A stretch of DNA of 64,000 bases from Leptospirillum ferrooxidans C2-3. Lineage in GTDB: Bacteria; Nitrospirota; Leptospirillia; Leptospirillales; Leptospirillaceae. The position numbers were made by a program, and so were the translations under genes. Numbering within the stretch: the stretch's first letter is position 1; each line of letters starts with the position of its first letter. The notes beneath the pieces were generated by a model. That model was not told the origin of the DNA and searched no databases. It saw nothing but the letters and a program-made list of their open reading frames with translations. The stretch is taken from positions 651,486 through 715,485 of the forward strand of contig NC_017094.1 of assembly GCF_000284315.1 (NCBI RefSeq), in the 5' to 3' direction. Below are positions 12,301-26,948 of the stretch, piece after piece.

Positions 12301-13521
12301 TTGAAAGATCTGAAGAAGGTGCTCAAACCTTCTCGAATGCCAGATCATTCCGGATATTTTGGGGAATTTGGCGGACGATTTGTTTCGGAAACACTGATGG
12401 AAGCTCTGTATGAACTTGAAACAGCTTTTAAAAAAGCTTGGAGTGACCGTGTATTCCGGAAAGAGTACCAGGATGTTCTTACGGAATTTGTCGGTAGGCC
12501 GTCTCCCCTGACTTTTGCCGAAGGATTGACCAACCATGCAGGTGGTGCTCGAATCTATCTCAAAAGGGAGGATCTCAACCATACTGGTGCGCACAAGATC
12601 AATAATGCTGTAGGTCAGGCCCTTCTTGCGAAAAGAATGGGAAAAAAAAGGCTTATTGCTGAAACAGGTGCTGGCCAGCATGGTGTCGCCACGGCAACTG
12701 TGGCGGCAAAGTATGGCTTTGATTGTGAAATTTTCATGGGGTCTGAAGATGCAAGGCGTCAATCCCTGAACGTTTTCCGGATGAACCTTCTTGGTGCAAA
12801 AGTAAAAGAAGTCGATGGCGGGACGAAGACGCTCAAGGATGCAATCAGTGAGGCTTTGAGGGATTGGGCCCAGTCTGTCCTGACAACCCATTACGTCCTG
12901 GGGACTGCGTTTGGACCGCATCCTTTTCCCTTGATGGTTCGCTCGTTCCAGTCTATTATCGGGCGTGAGGCACGCCAGCAAATCATGAAAAAGGAAGGGC
13001 GTCTGCCGGATGCACTGGTGGCTTGTGTGGGAGGCGGAAGCAATTCTCTCGGCTTGTTCCATCATTTTATTGGCGATGCATCTGTTCAGATGTTCGGAAT
13101 CGAAGCGGGAGGCCGCTCATTGTCTGAAGGTGATCATGCCGCACGTTTTCAAGGCGGGAGAGTTGGTGTTCTACAGGGTTCCAAGACATTTGTCCTGCAG
13201 AACCCGGATGGTCAGATCCTGAGAACGCATTCCGTTTCCGCGGGTCTTGATTACTCAGCGGTAGGACCTGAATTGGCCTATTATTTTGAAACGGGACGCG
13301 TTCACTTTGATGCGGTTGGGGATGATGAAGCCTTGCAGGCATTTGATACCCTTTCTCGTCTGGAGGGGATTATACCGGCGCTGGAAAGTTCCCATGCGAT
13401 CGCTTACGGTATTCGATTGGCCAGGGAAATGGGGCGTGGGAAGATCCTGATCATCAATCTTTCCGGCCGTGGAGATAAAGATGTTTTGGAGGTGGCTCGT
13501 TTGCGGGGGGAAATTTCATGA
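12301..13521 (+). CDS. trpB: Tryptophan synthase beta chain
   Basis: A 406-residue PLP enzyme joining indole and serine. Key motifs are [32 protein letters not shown] (with the PLP lysine), [12 protein letters not shown], and [12 protein letters not shown] (phosphate-binding loop). The N-terminal pattern is that of the standard TrpB1 type that pairs with TrpA. The start is TTG 12301, preceded by AAGGGGGAC as ribosome-binding site. It overlaps trpA by 4 bases. Confidence 0.95.
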
Positions 13522-14309
13522 TGCCCCGGACCCTTAAAAAAGTGAGACTCTCTGATAAAAAAGTCATCCCATATCTTATGGCGGGAGATCCGGATCTCCC
13601 GGTGACCAAGCGACTTCTCTCTGAAGCGAGCAAGGCAGGTGTATGGGCTGTTGAATTGGGAATTCCCTTCTCTGACCCGACGGCAGATGGTCCAGTTATC
13701 CAGAAGGCGGCCATCAGGGCCCTATCGGATAAAACATCCCTTACCAAAATTCTCTCTTTTCTGGGAGAGATTCCGCTTTCTGAAAGACCTCCTATTTTTA
13801 TCATGACCTACTTCAATCTCTTTTTGTCATTGACGATTGAGGAGTTTATCCAGGAGGCCGGTCGAGTTGGCGGTATCGTCGGGGCAGTGATACCGGATCT
13901 GTCTTTTGAAGACTCAAAGAAGGTCAGGAAAGCTTTTAAAGCGGCGGGTTTGGCTCTCATCCCGTTTATATCACCGACGACAAGCCCGTCCCGTATAAAA
14001 AAAATTCTTGCAACAGCGGATGGATTCATTTACTTTGTATCTTTGCTGGGTACGACTGGAAAAGCGCTGACCTTGTCGTCGACAATGGAAGAGTCGGTGA
14101 GGAATCTTCGTTCTCAGACGAAATTGCCTGTTTGTGTCGGTTTTGGAATTCAGACTCCGGAAATGGCAAAAGAGATTCTCCAGTTTTCTGACGGAGTGAT
14201 TGTTGGGTCCAGATTGGTTCAGGAAGAAAAGGATCCGCTTGAGTGGGGAAAATTGTTGCGACAATTTTGCGAAGTGGCCAGATCGATGCCTTCTTCGCAA
14301 CATCAATAG
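13518..14309 (+). CDS. trpA: Tryptophan synthase alpha chain
   Basis: A 263-residue TIM-barrel lyase releasing indole from indole-3-glycerol phosphate. Motifs: [28 protein letters not shown] (the catalytic Glu and Asp region), and VGFGIQTPE. Two adjacent ATG codons (13518, 13521) are possible. It completes the tryptophan pathway and is followed 20 bases later by accD, a common gene order in bacteria (trpFBA-accD-folC). Confidence 0.93.
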
Positions 14310-14329
14310 ATTGAATCAGGAGTCATAAT

Positions 14330-15262
14330 ATGGGTTGGCTTTCAAGGTCTCATTCGAAAGATAAAACTTCTGAAAAAAAACTCCCTGAAGTTCAGGAAGG
14401 TGAACGGAAAGTTCGGATTCCTGAAGGTCTCTGGATCAAGTGTCATTTGTGCCGCCAAATCGTTTACCGCAAGGAAGTTGAAAAAGCGGGTAAGGTTTGC
14501 CCCAAGTGCAATTACCATTTTCCCATTACGATTGATGAACGGATAGCCCAACTGGCGGATCCGGACTCCTTCGTTGAGTTTGCCGGGCAGATTGAACCGT
14601 TGGATCCCTTGAATTTTACCGATAGCATGCGTTATCCGGAGCGAGTCAGATTGGCTCAAAAAAAGACAGGGCTGACAGAGGCGTTGCGGATTGGTGATTG
14701 CAAGATCAATGCTCGTCCAGCTGTTCTTGGGGTTTTTTCTTTTGGGTTCATGGGTGGAAGTATGGGGTCTGTGGTAGGTGAAAAGGTTGTGAGGGCCGCG
14801 GAGCGAGCACTTGAACTGAAAGTTCCCCTTATTTTGGTGACTGCATCTGGAGGAGCCAGAATGCAGGAGGGAATTTTTTCTCTTATGCAAATGGCCAGAA
14901 CCAGTGCAGCCATTTCCCGTCTCCATGAAAATGCCATTCCGTTTTTCTCGGTTTTGACCGATCCGACCTTCGGAGGTGTCTCGGCCAGCTTTGCAATGCT
15001 GGGAGATGTCATTCTTGCAGAACCCCGTTCCCTGATTGGTTTTGCAGGTCCGAGAGTCATTGAACAAACAATCAAGCAGCAACTCCCTGAAGGTTTCCAA
15101 AGGGCGGAATTTCTACTGTCGCATGGTTTTTTGGACATGATTGTTGAGAGAGGAAAGCTTCGGGAAACGCTCTCTCTGCTCATCTGTCATTTCCGCCAAA
15201 ACGGAACGTCCAAGTGTCAGTCGGAGGGAGACCCTGAGGGCGAAGCCCTGGTGCGTGATTGA
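14330..15262 (+). CDS. accD: Acetyl-CoA carboxylase carboxyltransferase subunit beta
   Basis: A 310-residue protein. An N-terminal zinc ribbon (CHLCRQI and CPKCNYHF, about residues 38-60) is followed by the crotonase-fold carboxyltransferase domain with FMGGSMGSVVGEK, TASGGARMQEG and PTFGGVSASFA. With AccA it transfers CO2 from biotin to acetyl-CoA for fatty-acid synthesis. The first 25 residues are charged and variable. The stop overlaps the TTG start of folC. Confidence 0.93.
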   Translation: MGWLSRSHSKDKTSEKKLPEVQEGERKVRIPEGLWIKCHLCRQIVYRKEVEKAGKVCPKCNYHFPITIDERIAQLADPDSFVEFAGQIEPLDPLNFTDSMRYPERVRLAQKKTGLTEALRIGDCKINARPAVLGVFSFGFMGGSMGSVVGEKVVRAAERALELKVPLILVTASGGARMQEGIFSLMQMARTSAAISRLHENAIPFFSVLTDPTFGGVSASFAMLGDVILAEPRSLIGFAGPRVIEQTIKQQLPEGFQRAEFLLSHGFLDMIVERGKLRETLSLLICHFRQNGTSKCQSEGDPEGEALVRD

Positions 15263-19882: not shown

Positions 19883-20758
19883 CTAGGTATCCCCCCACTT
19901 GAGCTTATCTCTCAGGACCTCAAAATAGTTTCTCTCTGAGTTGACGATCAATCTCGTAATATGAGGTGAGCGAGTAATTTCAATCATGTCTCCCACTTTG
20001 AGGGAATGTCCAACTTGGCCGTCAAGAGTTGCGGTTACGGATGAGTCTCCTTTTTTGATAAGAATCTCAAGAGTTGCCGCACCAGGAATCACGATCGGCC
20101 TATGGGTCAGCGTATGCGGACAAATGGGGGTTATGATGATTCCATCCATTCCTGGATAAAGTATGGGGCCACCTGCAGATAAGGAATAGGCGGTTGAGCC
20201 TGTTGGTGAAGAGAAAATAACACCATCACCTTTGAGCGATGTGACAAATTGTGCATTCATATATATGTCTGACTCGATCAACCGTGCAATGGATCCGTTG
20301 TTGATTACGATATCATTTAATACATGGGTTTGTGATTGTTCGATCCGATTTCGAAAAATGCGCACCTGGAGCATGATTCGATCTTCAATGGAATAATCTC
20401 CCTGAAGTGTTCGGGATAAGACGTCTAAAACTTCAGTGGATTGAACTTCCGTTAAAAAACCCAGATTCCCGAGATTGACGCCAAGAATGGGAATCTGGGT
20501 CCCTGCAAGTAGTCTTGCCGCAGAGAGAAGCGTGCCATCTCCCCCTAAAACAAGAACGACTTCACTTTCGTCCCGAATGGTTTCTCTTGAGTATGAAGGC
20601 TCATCACGAAGAAGGGTTGCTCCTTCATGGTCCAGTAATGGTGTAACACCTTTGGATCGCATCCATGGTAATAGATCCATCAAAATAGATCTGATTGCTT
20701 CGGATCGATGTGGCTTGCAAAGGATACCCACTCGCACGATGGGAGTATTTGTCATCAT
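19883..20758 (-). CDS. nadK: NAD kinase
   Basis: A 291-residue ATP-NAD kinase making NADP. Conserved features are VVLVLGGDGTLLSAAR (GGDGT), GVNLGNLGFLTE (NE/NLGFLT loop), and FSSPTGSTAYSLSAGGPI. Its length is normal for the family. Two ATG codons are in tandem at 20758 and 20755, with CGGAG 5-7 bases upstream. It is transcribed away from the bc-complex operon. Confidence 0.93.
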   Translation of the reverse strand: MMTNTPIVRVGILCKPHRSEAIRSILMDLLPWMRSKGVTPLLDHEGATLLRDEPSYSRETIRDESEVVLVLGGDGTLLSAARLLAGTQIPILGVNLGNLGFLTEVQSTEVLDVLSRTLQGDYSIEDRIMLQVRIFRNRIEQSQTHVLNDIVINNGSIARLIESDIYMNAQFVTSLKGDGVIFSSPTGSTAYSLSAGGPILYPGMDGIIITPICPHTLTHRPIVIPGAATLEILIKKGDSSVTATLDGQVGHSLKVGDMIEITRSPHITRLIVNSERNYFEVLRDKLKWGDT

Positions 20759-21439: not shown

Positions 21440-23281
21440 ATGAAAGGAAAGTATAAGCTCCATATTCCTGAATACAATTACTATTCCGATCAGGTGGCTT
21501 GTCGGAAATCATGTCCGGTTGGTACAGATGCTGGTGGATATGTTCAGGCCATCCGCTCGGGAGAGTATGAAAAAGCTTACGCCATAGCGAGAGGGCCAAA
21601 TCCGTTTGCGTCTGTTTGTGGGTGGGTTTGTAACGCTCCATGTGAGGCATCCTGTACCCGCGGAAATATTGATCGCCCCGTTTCGATTCGGGCACTCAAG
21701 AGATTTGTAACGGAAAAGTATGGTGTCGAAGCGGTTCTCGATCCGGCAGCGACTCTTCGTTATTCCACTGCTCCTGGTGTCCCGTACGGTAGGGCAACTG
21801 GAGAGAAAGTTGCTATTATCGGCGGTGGACCTGCTGGTTTAAGCGCTGCCCATGATCTCGCCCGTCTTGGATACAGGGTGACTATATTTGAAGCAAATTC
21901 CAAATTGGGTGGCCTCTTTTACCTGGTTCCTGAATACCGCTTGCCTAGACCCTTGTTTCAGGCTGAAATCGAAGCCATCTTGAGTATGGGAGTCGAAGTC
22001 AGGCTCAATACAAAAGTTGGAAAAGATATCTCCTTTGAAGAGATCTATAAATCTTTTAAATCGGTTGTGATTTCCTCCGGTGCTTGGGGATCCCGCCCTA
22101 TTCCCTTTGAGGGAAAGGATCTTCAGGGAACCTATTCTGCTCTCCCATTCCTTCAATCTGTTTATATCCACCATCAGCCAGTGACTTTGGGGCGGCGTGT
22201 TGCCGTTGTTGGAGCAGGTAACGTGGCTATGGACGTTTGCAGAACCGCTGTCCGACTGCCAGGTGTTGAATCTGTCAGTGTTATCGCTCTGGAAGATTGG
22301 GCTGAAATGCCGGCGGATGATGCTGAAATCGAAGACGCTGTTGATGAAGGAGTGCATTTTCTGCCTCGCAAGGGAACCAGACGTATTGTTGGTTCCTCCT
22401 CTGTTGAGGGGATTGAGGTTGTTGGTGTCAAGTCCGTTTTTGACGATCAGGGACGCTTCAGTCCGGTCTATAACGAAGAGGATCTCATTGTTGTCCCGGT
22501 TGATTCAGTTGTCCTCGCTATCGGGCAGTCGATTGATACGGCGTTCATTTCAGGCGAGCATGATTCCATTATCGGTCGTAACGGAGTCATCCGTGCGAAT
22601 ATGAGCGACATGAGTACGGGCATTCCCGGCGTCTTTGCCGCCGGAGATGTGGTGACAGGGCCACGGATTTTCATTGAAGCCATTGCTGCCGGTCAGTCGG
22701 CTGCTGCATCCGTTCATCGCTATCTCAGTCAAAAGGAAACTCCAAAGACCATATTTGGCGTATCCACAGCGATTGAGCATAGAGGTGCACCGACCCCTGT
22801 GTGGCCGGTTGATTTTAATGTGGACGGTTACTATACGATTCCAAGACAAAACCCACAATTGTTGAAGCCGGAGTTTCGCCGTACCAATTTTGAGCTTGCT
22901 GAGCTCTCCTTCACTGAGGAGGAGGCGCGTGAGCAATCGTCTAGATGTTTGACTTGTCATGTAAACCCCATTTTTGTTGGGGAAAAGTGCATCATGTGCG
23001 GTGGATGCGTTGATGTGTGTCCTGAATTTGCCCTGAAAATGATTCCATTGTCAGAAGTGGATCTGGATATCCCGAAATCTGCAGATGTGTTGAGTGGATT
23101 TATCGGGGTCGAAAAGGCGCGTCTCGGGGAGACTGAAGTCCTTCAAGAACTTAGCCGTTCCACGGCAATGATCTGGGATGGCGCCCGATGTATCAGATGT
23201 GGTCTATGTGCCAAGAGGTGTCCAACTGGTGCTATCACAATGGAATACCTGGAAATCAAACAGGAGGTAACCCATACATGA
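21440..23281 (+). CDS. GltD-like FAD/NAD(P) oxidoreductase with C-terminal 2[4Fe-4S] ferredoxin domain
   Basis: A 613-residue protein. Domain order: an N-terminal Cys-rich Fe-S domain as in GltD/DPYD ([22 protein letters not shown]); an FAD motif [14 protein letters not shown] near 127; an NAD(P) motif [12 protein letters not shown] near 254; ATG-like [14 protein letters not shown]; then two 4Fe-4S motifs ([12 protein letters not shown] near 516 and [12 protein letters not shown] near 584). No glutamate synthase large subunit is nearby. Its stop overlaps the Rieske start, so it is the first gene of a bc-complex operon. I infer that it passes electrons between the quinone/bc complex and NAD(P)H or ferredoxin. 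Similar bc-linked NAD(P) oxidoreductases are known from anammox bacteria. Confidence 0.85.
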
Positions 23282-23892
23282 GTATTGTCGCAGACCAACC
23301 ACAGAATAATGATTCTGGAGTGCTAGGCCCAACAGAGCAGGGACGCAGGAAATTTATGCTTGCCGCTGGTTGGGGTGTTGTCGGTGCAACTTTGGCCGGT
23401 TCGACTTTTGCAGCCTATAAATACCTTTTCCCCCCGATCCTTTATGAGCCACCTACAGTTTTTAAGATTGGGCATGTTACGGAGTACGGTTTAGGTGTTG
23501 ATGAGAGATGGAAACTTAAGGGTCGCTTCTGGGTTGTGAGAAATATGAGGGGGATCTATAACATGATCTCCATCTGCCGCCATTTGGGTTGTACTCCAAA
23601 CTGGTTCCCAGACCAGAAGAGATTCCGTTGCCCATGTCACGGCTCCATTTATGACGTACATGGCAATGTTCGAGGCGGACCAGCTCCAAGGACTCTCTGG
23701 AGAGGGCAAATCACTAAAGATCCTGTTGATGGTGCACTTGTTGTCAATACTGTTATTCGGCTTGACCCAAATCCTGCTCAAACTCCTCAAGGGCTTTGGG
23801 TAAAAGAAAAGGTAAAAGAAGTCAATCCGTTCTGGATCGAACATACTCCTCCATCCGGTGGGTCGTGTTCTTCAAACAGGTTGCTTTGCTAG
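23278..23892 (+). CDS. petA: Rieske [2Fe-2S] protein of the bc complex
   Basis: A 204-residue protein: N-terminal cytosolic tail, one membrane anchor at about 20-45, and a Rieske domain with both cluster motifs CRHLGC (about 99-104) and CPCHGS (about 117-122). It takes an electron from quinol at the outer face and passes it to a cytochrome c. It starts at ATG 23278, overlapping the stop of the oxidoreductase (ATGA); the longer open frame upstream lies inside that gene. The C-terminal tail is Cys/Ser-rich ([11 protein letters not shown]). The symbol follows bc/b6f usage for the Rieske subunit. Confidence 0.92.
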
Positions 23893-23969
23893 GATCAACT
23901 GGCTTGATTGGGTAGGTTTATGCTGGCACACATTAAAAACATTCCTTTTTTAAAGGGAAAGGGTATTTG

Positions 23970-24731
23970 ATGCTGGAAAAAATGAAAGAAAAAGTGGTTC
24001 AGACTCAGCTATTCAAGTCTGTATTTAGACATGGATATCCTGATAATGAACTGAATCAAGCTTATGTTGTCTTCAGTAATATCTTTCTTCATATCCACCC
24101 TGTGAAGGTTCGCCGCACTGCGTTGCGCATGCGCTACACATTCTGTCTGGGTGGCATTACTCTTTTCCTCTTTATCATGCTGGCCGTCACCGGGATTTGG
24201 CTTATGTTCTACTACACTCCTTATACCGGTTTGGCTTATAAGAACATCAAGGATATCCAGTTTGTGATCTTTGGTGGGAACCTTATGCGAGATCTTCACC
24301 GGTTTGCAGCCCATGGAATGGTTTTGTTTGTTTGGCTGCATATGACGAGGGTATTCCTGACCGGAGCCTATAAGGCTCCCAGGGAGTTCAACTGGGTCGT
24401 TGGAGTTGTTCTTCTTGTCAATACTCTGATCCTGAGTTGGACAGGGTATCTTCTTCCATGGGATCAGCTTGCTTACTGGGCCGTTACAGTGGGAACCAAG
24501 ATGGCTTCCTATACCCCTTTTATCGGTCAGAATGGTCCATGGGGTGCCCAGCTTGGTGTTAACCCGACAAACGATCTGATGTTCATGATGATCGGCGGAA
24601 CGGTCGTTGGGCAAAACGCACTGATCCGGTTTTATGTCCTTCATTGTGTCGTATTGCCTCTTGTTGTAACAGTGTTTCTGGCTGTTCATTTCTGGAGAAT
24701 CCGGAAGGACGGTTTTTCAGGACCCTTGTAA
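23970..24731 (+). CDS. petB: Cytochrome b, N-terminal half (b6-like)
   Basis: A 253-residue protein carrying the four-helix haem-binding half of cytochrome b. Helix B has His110 and His124 (13 residues between) and helix D has His225 and His240 (14 residues between). The 14-residue spacing in helix D is that of b6-type proteins rather than mitochondrial-type cytochrome b. [10 protein letters not shown] and the N-terminal amphipathic segment are typical. It binds two b haems and is part of both quinone sites. I chose ATG 23970, preceded by AAAGGGAAAGGG; an in-frame TTG lies directly before it. It is followed 62 bases later by the C-terminal half as a separate gene. Confidence 0.92.
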
Positions 24732-24793
24732 AGCCTCAATGAGGAATATTGATTGTGCCGTTAGCGTAATCTCGTTTCGGAGAGGATAATCTT

Positions 24794-25624
24794 ATGGAAA
24801 ATAAGGCAGTAAGAGAAATATTTCCAAGGGATGCAAAGAAATCCTATGGTCTAGTTGAGCTGATGAAGGGAGCTTCTCCGATTGTCCGCAAGGAACCGGA
24901 AGACACTGTCTACACTTGGCCAAATCTCATCATGATTGAACTTATTTGTGCATTATTGGTAACAGCAGCATTGATTCTTTTGGTCCAGTTTGAGCATGCC
25001 CCATTGAGGTCTCTGGCGGATCCGTCCACGACCCCAAACCCAATGAGAGCCCCGTGGTACTTTTTGGGTTTGCAGGAAATTCTCGTCTATTTTGACCCCT
25101 GGTATGCAGGAGTTGTCCTGCCTGGAATGATTATTGTCGGATTGATGATTTTCCCGTACGTCGACACGAATCCAAAAGGTGTTGGCTATTACACATACTC
25201 CGAAAGAAAGTTTGCTGTTTTTAATTATTCCTTTGGTTTTGCACTCTGGTGGATCACAATTGTCATCGGTACTTACCTCCGTGGGTTGGACTGGCAATGG
25301 TATTGGCCCTGGAGCGATAAACTTGCCCACATGAACCCGGCCTTGGTGACTCTGGTTCCGTTACACATCGTCTTCGTCAATCTTCTCCATGTCTCAAAGG
25401 ATGTGGCAAAGGGTTTTTGTGATATTATCTTTCTCGGATACTTTGCTTTGGGAATGCTGATTCCTTATATGTTTATGCGCAAATTTTATGATTCCATGGG
25501 GGCGGGGAGATATATCACTTTCATGATCTTCTTTTTGTCCATGATGGGTGTTGCGTTGAAAATTGTTTTGAGACTTCTTTTCAATATCAAGTATATCGTT
25601 GTAACCCCATGGATTAATGTTTGA
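24794..25624 (+). CDS. petD: Cytochrome b, C-terminal half (extended subunit IV-like)
   Basis: A 276-residue protein that is longer than b6f subunit IV (about 160) and has about six membrane helices. The quinol-site motif normally written PEWY reads APWYFLGLQE here. The Glu is replaced by Pro-neighbouring residues, with Glu only later in LQEIL, followed by YFDPWYAGVVLPG. This variant is, from memory, common in Nitrospirota and some deltaproteobacterial bc complexes. A split cytochrome b with an extended C-half also fits that group. A ribosome site GGAGAGGA lies before the ATG. It is followed by two RNA hairpins before the next gene. Confidence 0.88.
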   Translation: MENKAVREIFPRDAKKSYGLVELMKGASPIVRKEPEDTVYTWPNLIMIELICALLVTAALILLVQFEHAPLRSLADPSTTPNPMRAPWYFLGLQEILVYFDPWYAGVVLPGMIIVGLMIFPYVDTNPKGVGYYTYSERKFAVFNYSFGFALWWITIVIGTYLRGLDWQWYWPWSDKLAHMNPALVTLVPLHIVFVNLLHVSKDVAKGFCDIIFLGYFALGMLIPYMFMRKFYDSMGAGRYITFMIFFLSMMGVALKIVLRLLFNIKYIVVTPWINV

Positions 25625-25689
25625 CCAAATTTTTGGTCTAGGCTCCAAATGCAAGAAGTCAAATACGGGCGAAGATCAAATCTTCGCCC
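25623..25689 (+). other. Two intercistronic hairpins in the bc-complex operon
   Basis: GACCAAA/TTTGGTC (25623-25638) overlaps the stop codon of the cytochrome b C-half. GGGCGAAGA (25667-25675) pairs perfectly with TCTTCGCCC (25681-25689) over a TCAAA loop. There is no T-run after the second stem, so full termination is unlikely. These may be processing or mRNA-stability elements that set different levels for the cytochrome b genes and the downstream subunits. Confidence 0.5.
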
Positions 25690-25703
25690 TTCGGGGAGGT
25701 TGA

Positions 25704-25925
25704 ATGGGATCGATACATAGTTTCTTTGATGCTCCTTGGATTGAGCAGGTTTTTGGATTTCCATACAGAATTGGAATATCCCTTGTATTGTTGTTTGGAA
25801 CAGCTTTTTTCTATTACCTGGTCATCTGGTTCCAGAAATGGCAAGAGGGAAGTTTTTACCCAGAAGGCCATCCTCTTCGCAAGGATTCGTCTTCCAATGA
25901 TCAAGAAAGGGGAATTCGATCATGA
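25704..25925 (+). CDS. Small single-span membrane protein of the bc-complex operon
   Basis: A 73-residue protein with one helix at about 23-42 and a polar C-terminal tail (EGSFYPEGHPLRKD). A strong GGGGAGG precedes the ATG, and the stop overlaps the ATG of the tetrahaem cytochrome gene (ATGA), so translation is very likely. I recognise no family. Small one-helix subunits are usual in b6f and bc complexes (PetG, PetL, PetM, PetN and QCR-type), and this could be an analogous accessory subunit. That is inference from position and size. Confidence 0.7.
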   Translation: MGSIHSFFDAPWIEQVFGFPYRIGISLVLLFGTAFFYYLVIWFQKWQEGSFYPEGHPLRKDSSSNDQERGIRS

Positions 25926-26887
25926 AGATGAAAATATACGCCATGTTCCTTTTCTCCACGATTTTTGTCGGAGTAATGATTGCGGTAGAGATGTACAAGG
26001 ACTCTCATCCTGAATGGATGTCATATCAAAGTCACTTCTATAAAATCCTTGCAAAAAAAACCAACAAGCCGGAGATTGCCAATACTCCTCTGCAAGTCGT
26101 TCAGACATGGAACACCATTCTGAATAAGGCGGACAGATGCCAAACATGTCATATGGGTATCAATATCCCCATTTTCAAGGATATGCCAGAACCTTTCACC
26201 GCACATCCCGATATGTCAGGATTCATGTCCAAACATCCTTTTGAAAAATTTGGATGCACCGTTTGTCACGACGGAAACGGAATGGCAACGACCGTAAAGG
26301 AAGCTCATGGCTTTAATGTCACCTTGAATTATCAGCCTAAGGTAGGTCCTTTTTCCGAGGCATCCTGCACGAAATGTCACACAGATCTTTATAGTGAAGG
26401 CGTGAATCCTCCAATGACGCCCTATCTTAATCTCGCTAAAAGAACTATCAAGGAAAAAGGTTGCGGTTCCTGTCACATGATGGCCCAGTTCAATTTACAC
26501 GGAGTCCTTGCGCCGGATCTATCAGGATTTGGTTCGAGAACAGAGCTAGGCTTCTATAATGTTCACATGTTTGAGTATGTGAATGGTATTCGCTCGGAGA
26601 GGGAATGGGAGTGGGAGCATTTCAAGAACCCCAGACGCGTATCTCCTGGAGTGCCAGCATTCAAGGTTCCTCCAACCATCATGCCCAATTTTCATCTGAC
26701 GGACGAGCAGACAACCGCTCTTACGGTCTGGGTCCTTGGTTTGGTTGATCCCTCCGTTATCACAGTTCCGCAAAAATATTTGCCGGTTGAAAGAAGTCAG
26801 GGAAGGCCCGTTCCCATCCCTATCACCAAGGGAAATATCGGAGTGTTCCCGGATTCAGCCTTTAAAAAAGTTTCGTTTAAAAATTAA
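25922..26887 (+). CDS. Membrane-anchored tetrahaem cytochrome c of the bc complex
   Basis: A 321-residue protein with an N-terminal membrane anchor (residues 5-25) and four CxxCH haem sites: CQTCH near 72, CTVCH, CTKCH and CGSCH near 180. Several distal Met and His candidates are present (MPEPF, MPNFHL). It replaces a classical cytochrome c1 or f as the electron exit of the complex. The last third has PTIMPNFHLTDEQ, resembling the Met-ligand end of class I cytochrome c folds. It is the last gene before the terminator at 26908. Confidence 0.88.
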   Translation: MKMKIYAMFLFSTIFVGVMIAVEMYKDSHPEWMSYQSHFYKILAKKTNKPEIANTPLQVVQTWNTILNKADRCQTCHMGINIPIFKDMPEPFTAHPDMSGFMSKHPFEKFGCTVCHDGNGMATTVKEAHGFNVTLNYQPKVGPFSEASCTKCHTDLYSEGVNPPMTPYLNLAKRTIKEKGCGSCHMMAQFNLHGVLAPDLSGFGSRTELGFYNVHMFEYVNGIRSEREWEWEHFKNPRRVSPGVPAFKVPPTIMPNFHLTDEQTTALTVWVLGLVDPSVITVPQKYLPVERSQGRPVPIPITKGNIGVFPDSAFKKVSFKN

Positions 26888-26907: not shown

Positions 26908-26948
26908 AAAACCCCCTTTGCCGTCAGGTGAAGGGGGTTTTCTTTTAT
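26908..26948 (+). terminator. Rho-independent terminator of the bc-complex operon
   Basis: AAAACCCCCTT pairs with AAGGGGGTTTT across a 12-base loop and is followed by CTTTTAT. The stem is strong and lies 20 bases after the cytochrome stop. It closes the operon before the ABC transporter genes. Confidence 0.85.

Follow-up and report, generated by a model that had tools for sequence, protein, structure and literature searches.

The window analysed here, a stretch of 64,000 nucleotides from Leptospirillum ferrooxidans C2-3 (contig NC_017094.1, positions 651,486 to 715,485), contains a single six-gene operon at positions 21440-26887 of the forward strand, as determined by direct reading of the open reading frames (ORFs) and by Pfam and NCBIfam searches. 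The genes encode, in order, a GltD-like flavoprotein with iron-sulfur (Fe-S) clusters, designated GltDx, followed by a Rieske protein, a cytochrome b6, a subunit IV-like protein, a 73-aa membrane protein, and a tetrahaem cytochrome c. A preliminary description, made from the sequence alone, had listed the same genes in the same order and proposed a quinol-cytochrome complex tied to NAD(P)H or ferredoxin. No cytochrome c1 or cytochrome f subunit was detected in the operon by Pfam; the tetrahaem cytochrome is found there instead.

The GltDx and Rieske genes overlap, as previously described, although the overlap comprises only 4 bases (ATGA at 23278-23281) and does not extend back to 23188, where the mechanically called ORF begins. 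The Rieske start codon is most likely the ATG at 23278, which lies behind AGGAGG. Separate transcription of the two genes was considered and is unlikely because of this overlap and the ribosome-binding site inside the upstream gene. A strong, G+C-rich hairpin closes the operon; it was read directly, since a loop of 10 bases is longer than the terminator scan allows. The terminator-like sites that the scan returned within the operon lie in coding sequence and match weakly.

To place the operon among related genomes, GltD relatives were sought in 296 Nitrospirota genomes and their loci were then inspected; genome-wide checks in the genome of the window were done by family search. A GltD-like gene directly adjoined the Rieske gene in all of the examined genomes that hold a close full-length relative (41/41, 11 family codes), a gene order far beyond chance; the largest Nitrospirota family (f10) held distant GltD relatives only. 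The GltDx lineage was also detected outside the phylum, beside Rieske and cytochrome b genes in a KSB1 bacterium (L178) and beside cytochrome b in a Latescibacterota bacterium (L177). Because coupling and order are kept across 11 families of Nitrospirota and in two further phyla, GltDx is very probably part of the cytochrome complex, which agrees with the earlier proposal. The homologous clusters that the preliminary description suggested looking for were found in other Nitrospirota and in anammox bacteria.

Two architectures were observed in Nitrospirota: one with a split cytochrome b and a tetrahaem cytochrome, to which the window belongs, and one with a fused cytochrome b of about 518 aa, frequently accompanied by a 6-haem and once by a 10-haem cytochrome. 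The cysteine for haem cN is present in the window and absent in the fused type carrying GltDx. Counterparts of the 73-aa protein, 38-72 aa long, occupy the equivalent position in related split-cytochrome-b operons.

Table. Features of the operon and its downstream hairpin (positions within the window)
Feature	Position	Strand	Details and basis
GltDx, GltD-like oxidoreductase with FAD and Fe-S clusters, predicted NAD(H) type	21440..23281	+	613 aa; Pfam Fer4_20, Pyr_redox_2, Fer4
GltDx ALE codons (A283-L284-E285), site of the NADP-binding YRR motif	22286..22294	+	alignment with NfnB and relatives
Rieske [2Fe-2S] protein	23278..23892	+	204 aa; Pfam Rieske; CPCHGSIY; C-terminal extension
Cytochrome b6-type subunit	23970..24731	+	253 aa; Pfam Cytochrome_B 2e-37; PDB cytochrome b6
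His codon, proposed dimer-interface b-haem ligand position (Kustd1481 His62 / Kuste4571 His43)	24090..24092	+	numbering of anammox orthologues, alignment
Cys codon for covalent haem cN	24144..24146	+	alignment with cytochrome b6
Subunit IV-like membrane protein	24794..25624	+	276 aa; Pfam Cytochrom_B_C
Small one-helix protein	25704..25925	+	73 aa; sequence; ATGA overlap with the tetrahaem cytochrome gene
Membrane-anchored tetrahaem cytochrome c	25922..26887	+	321 aa; four CXXCH, conserved in alignment; N-terminal transmembrane segment
Terminator-like hairpin and T-rich tail	26910..26947	+	sequence read directly: AACCCCCTTT / GAAGGGGGTT, then TTCTTTTA

An unrelated ATP-binding cassette (ABC) transporter gene lies downstream of the hairpin. 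Upstream, an NAD kinase gene (19883-20758, reverse strand) diverges from the operon, and the same neighbour was observed in Leptospirillaceae-like loci and in both f24 genomes; a link to NAD(P) supply is possible.

GltDx comprises an N-terminal Fer4_20 domain (residues 19-93), a Pyr_redox_2 domain (residues 123-418), and a C-terminal double [4Fe-4S] domain, which is bacterial ferredoxin-like with invariant cysteines and is preceded by an additional invariant CX2C. A PDB search matched GltDx to NfnA/NfnB/StnB-type chains with E values down to 1e-84, and Foldseek agreed. The structure model (mean predicted local distance difference test score 66.7, from 11 sequences) is good only for the FAD/NAD core and was used for fold identity, not for docking. 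In NfnB, a YRR motif holds the 2'-phosphate of NADP; among DsrL enzymes, those that have YRR use NADP(H) and those that lack it use NAD(H) (PMC7596348). The alignment showed ALE at this position in the GltDx of the window and x-(L/I/M)-E in every row of its clade (24/24), whereas the four anammox GltD-like proteins aligned all carry YRR. Since YRR is replaced by ALE, GltDx is predicted to use NAD(H) and not NADP(H), so that only the NAD(H) half of the NAD(P)(H) cofactor named in the preliminary description is retained. The x-(L/I/M)-E motif also occurs in a neighbouring GltD group that lacks linkage to the complex and is therefore not specific to the complex. The gene content, its conservation, and the cofactor motif are well supported.

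In the GltD trees, the GltDx of the window fell into a 24-row clade that consists of complex-linked genes only (support 98/98 in the first tree and 99/97 in the second). Of the anammox proteins, the Kustd1483-like ones clustered among other GltD proteins and the Kuste4570-like ones stood apart. A single clade of complex-linked GltD subunits, as expected from a single origin, was rejected by the approximately unbiased (AU) test (p-AU 0.00026); thus, GltD-like subunits probably entered such complexes on more than one occasion. The GltD tree, being unrooted, would still allow some lineages to have lost the association. The cytochrome b tree, with long branches for L178 and L056, is compatible both with and without one old GltD association followed by loss. 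A mosaic operon was also seen in the trees: at L045, GltDx groups with the split-cytochrome-b lineages L040/L060, and the cytochrome b is of the fused 518-aa type.

The membrane core was compared with that of anammox bacteria. Two Rieske/b complexes of Kuenenia, Kustd1480-85 and Kuste4569-74, include a putative NAD(P) oxidoreductase (Hauser et al. 2025, PMC12954380). In the PDB, the Rieske protein of the window matched best to 9rk3, a Kuenenia Rieske protein, which is taken to be Kustd1480 because of its name and of SGF in place of SxY. In the window, CPCHGSIY retains the Ser and Tyr of the high-potential type. The C-terminal extension of the Rieske protein (23800-23892) ends in a Cys pair, CSSNRLLC, and occurs only in the family of the window, the other families lacking it. 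In the cytochrome b6, the histidines for the b haems and the cysteine for haem cN are both present. The subunit IV-like protein is longer than subunit IV of b6f, its homologues having about five helices, and the PEWY of the Qo site reads APWYFLGLQE (25040-25110) across the whole family, whether GltDx is present or not.

An extra b haem has been predicted at the dimer interface of anammox cytochrome b, with His43 or His62 and Arg247 or Arg266 (PMC12954380). These residues map to the first His of N-x-x-x-H-L-H-P before the first helix and to the Arg of RKDG near the C-terminus; the Brocadia sequence L067 has His 62 and Arg 266, in exact agreement with the Kuenenia numbering, and L179 has His at 43. 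The alignment revealed both the His and the C-terminal Arg in the cytochrome b of the window. All complexes whose fetched locus includes a GltD gene have the dimer-interface His (21/21), as do, among the matches listed, 48/49 whose locus lacks one; the exception (L104) reads as a broken frame. That complexes with no NAD(P) gene nearby share this proposed ligand bears on the published anammox model (PMC12954380).

Taken together, these features suggest a b6f-like Rieske/cytochrome b complex that would face the periplasm with a multihaem cytochrome c and would bind, at its cytoplasmic face, a GltD/Nfn-like flavoprotein of the NAD(H) type; gene content, coupling, conservation, cofactor motifs, and phylogeny are observed here, whereas its physical assembly, the electron path to FAD, and the direction of flow are what we infer. 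In the reading that we favour, and to which we give about an even chance, the complex bifurcates the electrons of quinol to NAD+ and to periplasmic cytochrome c. Quinol would be oxidised at the Qo site, from which the first electron would pass through the high-potential Rieske cluster and the tetrahaem cytochrome to the periplasmic cytochrome c pool, and the second would enter the b haems, probably involving haem cN and the proposed dimer-interface haem as well, and continue via the GltDx Fe-S clusters and FAD to NAD+. This reading is based on several observations: the core is homologous to that of anammox operons whose complexes are proposed to make NAD(P)H; GltDx is coupled to Rieske/bc genes in the genomes examined, and its 24 complex-linked rows form one supported group with the NAD-type motif; the Rieske protein has the high-potential Ser and Tyr and GltDx matches NAD(P)-using Nfn/Stn/GltD proteins; and DsrL enzymes of the GltDx type work in both directions. 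The anammox complexes were proposed by Kartal et al. (2013), as cited in PMC12954380, and NAD(P)H formation by quinol bifurcation has been proposed for them; PMC12954380 gives the Rieske potentials as +303 and +335 mV, and its AlphaFold models place an Fe-S path between cytochrome b and FAD. Judged by sequence, the interpretation in the preliminary description appears a fair hypothesis that is partly supported.

Several points weigh against bifurcation. The anammox precedent is itself a proposal, and the dimer-interface His was rejected as evidence for NAD(P) reduction, being a trait of the wider family. The genome encodes complex I with its NADH-binding subunit, which could supply NADH alone, and a second bc complex (a 460-aa cytochrome b beside a 312-aa Rieske protein); the operon is therefore not the only possible NADH route. 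As a side observation, the genome also holds a 1058-aa frame (G000:C1:1073390-1075957; L004, L063) with Complex1_51K (NuoF-like) and GltD-like domains. L. ferrooxidans C2-3 is probably an iron oxidiser with an acid periplasm, and the energetic argument draws on this. Quinol in such an organism would have to derive from cytochrome electrons driven uphill, and the second bc complex is a candidate for that step. The family search of the genome gave no MqnA/MqnD match and no MenD over the cut-off, so that none of the known menaquinone pathways was recognised, which is consistent with a quinone other than menaquinone; the methyl-plastoquinone of Nitrospira was measured at about +55 mV (PMC12324825). 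If the quinone lies above the menaquinone potential, as in Nitrospira, a high-potential Rieske protein would be ordinary and the uphill step larger. With a quinone near +55 mV and NAD+ at -320 mV, that step would be about 375 mV per electron, and electrons passing to a cytochrome c pool that Fe(II)/Fe(III) keeps poised would have a drop at least comparable in size available to them. The high Rieske potential was not used as proof of bifurcation, because the quinone may have a higher potential than menaquinone.

Three other explanations are possible, and the best of them, although unlikely, is flow in the reverse direction, from NADH through FAD and the Fe-S clusters and the b haems to quinone or cytochrome c, which could serve redox balancing or the respiration of stored carbon. 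GltD-like enzymes of this fold, DsrL among them, run both ways (PMC7596348), and many of the operon-bearing Nitrospirota, some with 6- or 10-haem cytochromes, are not known here as iron oxidisers; however, such flow would waste energy that the complex I present could conserve, an objection equivalent to one raised for Kuenenia (PMC12954380).

Less probable again is a ferredoxin or another Fe-S protein as the cytoplasmic partner, instead of or besides NAD(H), with the C-terminal 2[4Fe-4S] domain as its docking or exit site, which might allow the complex to set the redox poise of ferredoxin. Such autotrophs may need ferredoxin for their reductive metabolism, the domain is ferredoxin-like with its cysteines invariant, and the nearest solved relatives are the ferredoxin-linked Nfn/Stn subunits. 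Against this, ferredoxin is even harder to reduce than NAD+, the operon has neither a ferredoxin gene nor a second flavin subunit, and the anammox models use the clusters as the path from cytochrome b to FAD (PMC12954380).

The glutamate synthase large subunit, reported absent in the preliminary description, is indeed missing from the window; however, the genome encodes a GltB (1593 aa) at C1:984 kb, about 310 kb from the operon, with no GltD gene in the 8.5 kb surrounding it. GltDx shares with GltD, the small subunit, a common fold and an N-terminal Fe-S domain, and could be that missing subunit, or a soluble NADH enzyme, merely co-transcribed with the bc genes. This weakest explanation is improbable, and a role as glutamate synthase subunit was rejected on models, motif, and neighbourhood: GltDx falls far below all curated small-subunit cut-offs (gltA, 261/472 bits; gltD families, 224/483 and 197/448), has an extra C-terminal ferredoxin domain, lacks YRR and a neighbouring GltB, and keeps its Rieske adjacency throughout the 41 genomes, whereas the genome holds two further GltD-like genes and GltB is nearest, by a small margin, to the ferredoxin-dependent type in the PDB.

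Quinol bifurcation would bear on an old question, namely how lithotrophs with high-potential donors make NADH, which is usually answered by running both bc1 and complex I in reverse. A bc complex conserved together with an NADH-type subunit of its own would be a one-enzyme alternative, and one found in cultivable, non-pathogenic bacteria rather than in slow anammox cultures. The wider claim is more tentative, at somewhat less than an even chance: that a quinol-bifurcating complex reduces NAD+ directly, bypassing complex I, across much of Nitrospirota, and arose apart from the two anammox versions as a third, NAD-specific route to NADH. The presence of separate GltD lineages in such complexes suggests functional pairing, and their NAD and NADP motifs offer a direct contrast. 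The pairing of a cytochrome b complex with an NAD(P) flavoprotein has so far been discussed only for anammox bacteria; in the literature covered, outside subscription journals and bioRxiv, no description of the complex in Leptospirillum or Nitrospirota was found.

Among known systems, NfnB, NfnABC, StnABC, and DsrL share the Fer4_20 domain and FAD/NAD(P) fold of GltDx, and DsrL also has a C-terminal [4Fe-4S] pair. Unlike NfnABC, StnABC, and DsrL, GltDx is tied to a membrane cytochrome complex; no Nfn/Stn partner or second-flavin subunit and no dsrAB were found among its neighbours (bc genes, NAD kinase, and ABC transporter), the search for dsrAB being confined to these. The Rieske/cytochrome b6/subunit IV/octahaem operons of Acidobacteriota, Planctomycetota, Marinimicrobia, Nitrospina, and others have the same membrane core, including the N-terminal His and APWY for PEWY, but most of these operons lack a GltD-like gene in the fetched loci, among the matches listed.

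The closest systems are those of anammox bacteria, where 9rk3 was used as the query in named genomes; the related operons without GltDx are the matches listed, a sample. Brocadia and Scalindua operons with Rieske, cytochrome b, GltD-like, and subunit IV genes were recovered, that of Brocadia also with an octahaem protein, and Kuste4569-74-like operons were found in the same genomes. In Brocadia L067, a 657-aa gene (13184-15157) separates the GltD-like gene from that for subunit IV; L068 and L069 lack it. The window contains the anammox-type core of Rieske protein, four-helix b6-like cytochrome b, elongated subunit IV, and GltD-like gene in one cluster, and its cytochrome is likewise multihaem, but with four haems compared with the hexa- or octahaem anammox type. 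With Kustd1480-1485 (also Brocadia L067 and Scalindua L069), it further shares the haem cN Cys, the dimer-interface His, and the C-terminal 2[4Fe-4S] domain of the GltD-like protein; however, in Kustd1480-1485 the GltD gene is third rather than first, the motif is YRR (NADP type) rather than ALE, the cytochrome is octahaem rather than tetrahaem, and the GltD subunit comes from another lineage. Kuste4569-4574 (also L179 and L180), the only complex for which PMC12954380 relates subunit co-migration from a complexome paper, has the Rieske, GltD-like, cytochrome b6, subunit IV, and multihaem cytochrome genes clustered as in the window, but differs in an additional octahaem protein resembling hydroxylamine oxidoreductase (HAO), a YRR motif, a GltD subunit of a third lineage, and a GltD gene placed after the Rieske gene. 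In summary, systems of this kind have been outlined in anammox bacteria, and the operon of L. ferrooxidans represents a distinct, apparently NAD-type, and wider-spread variant of it.

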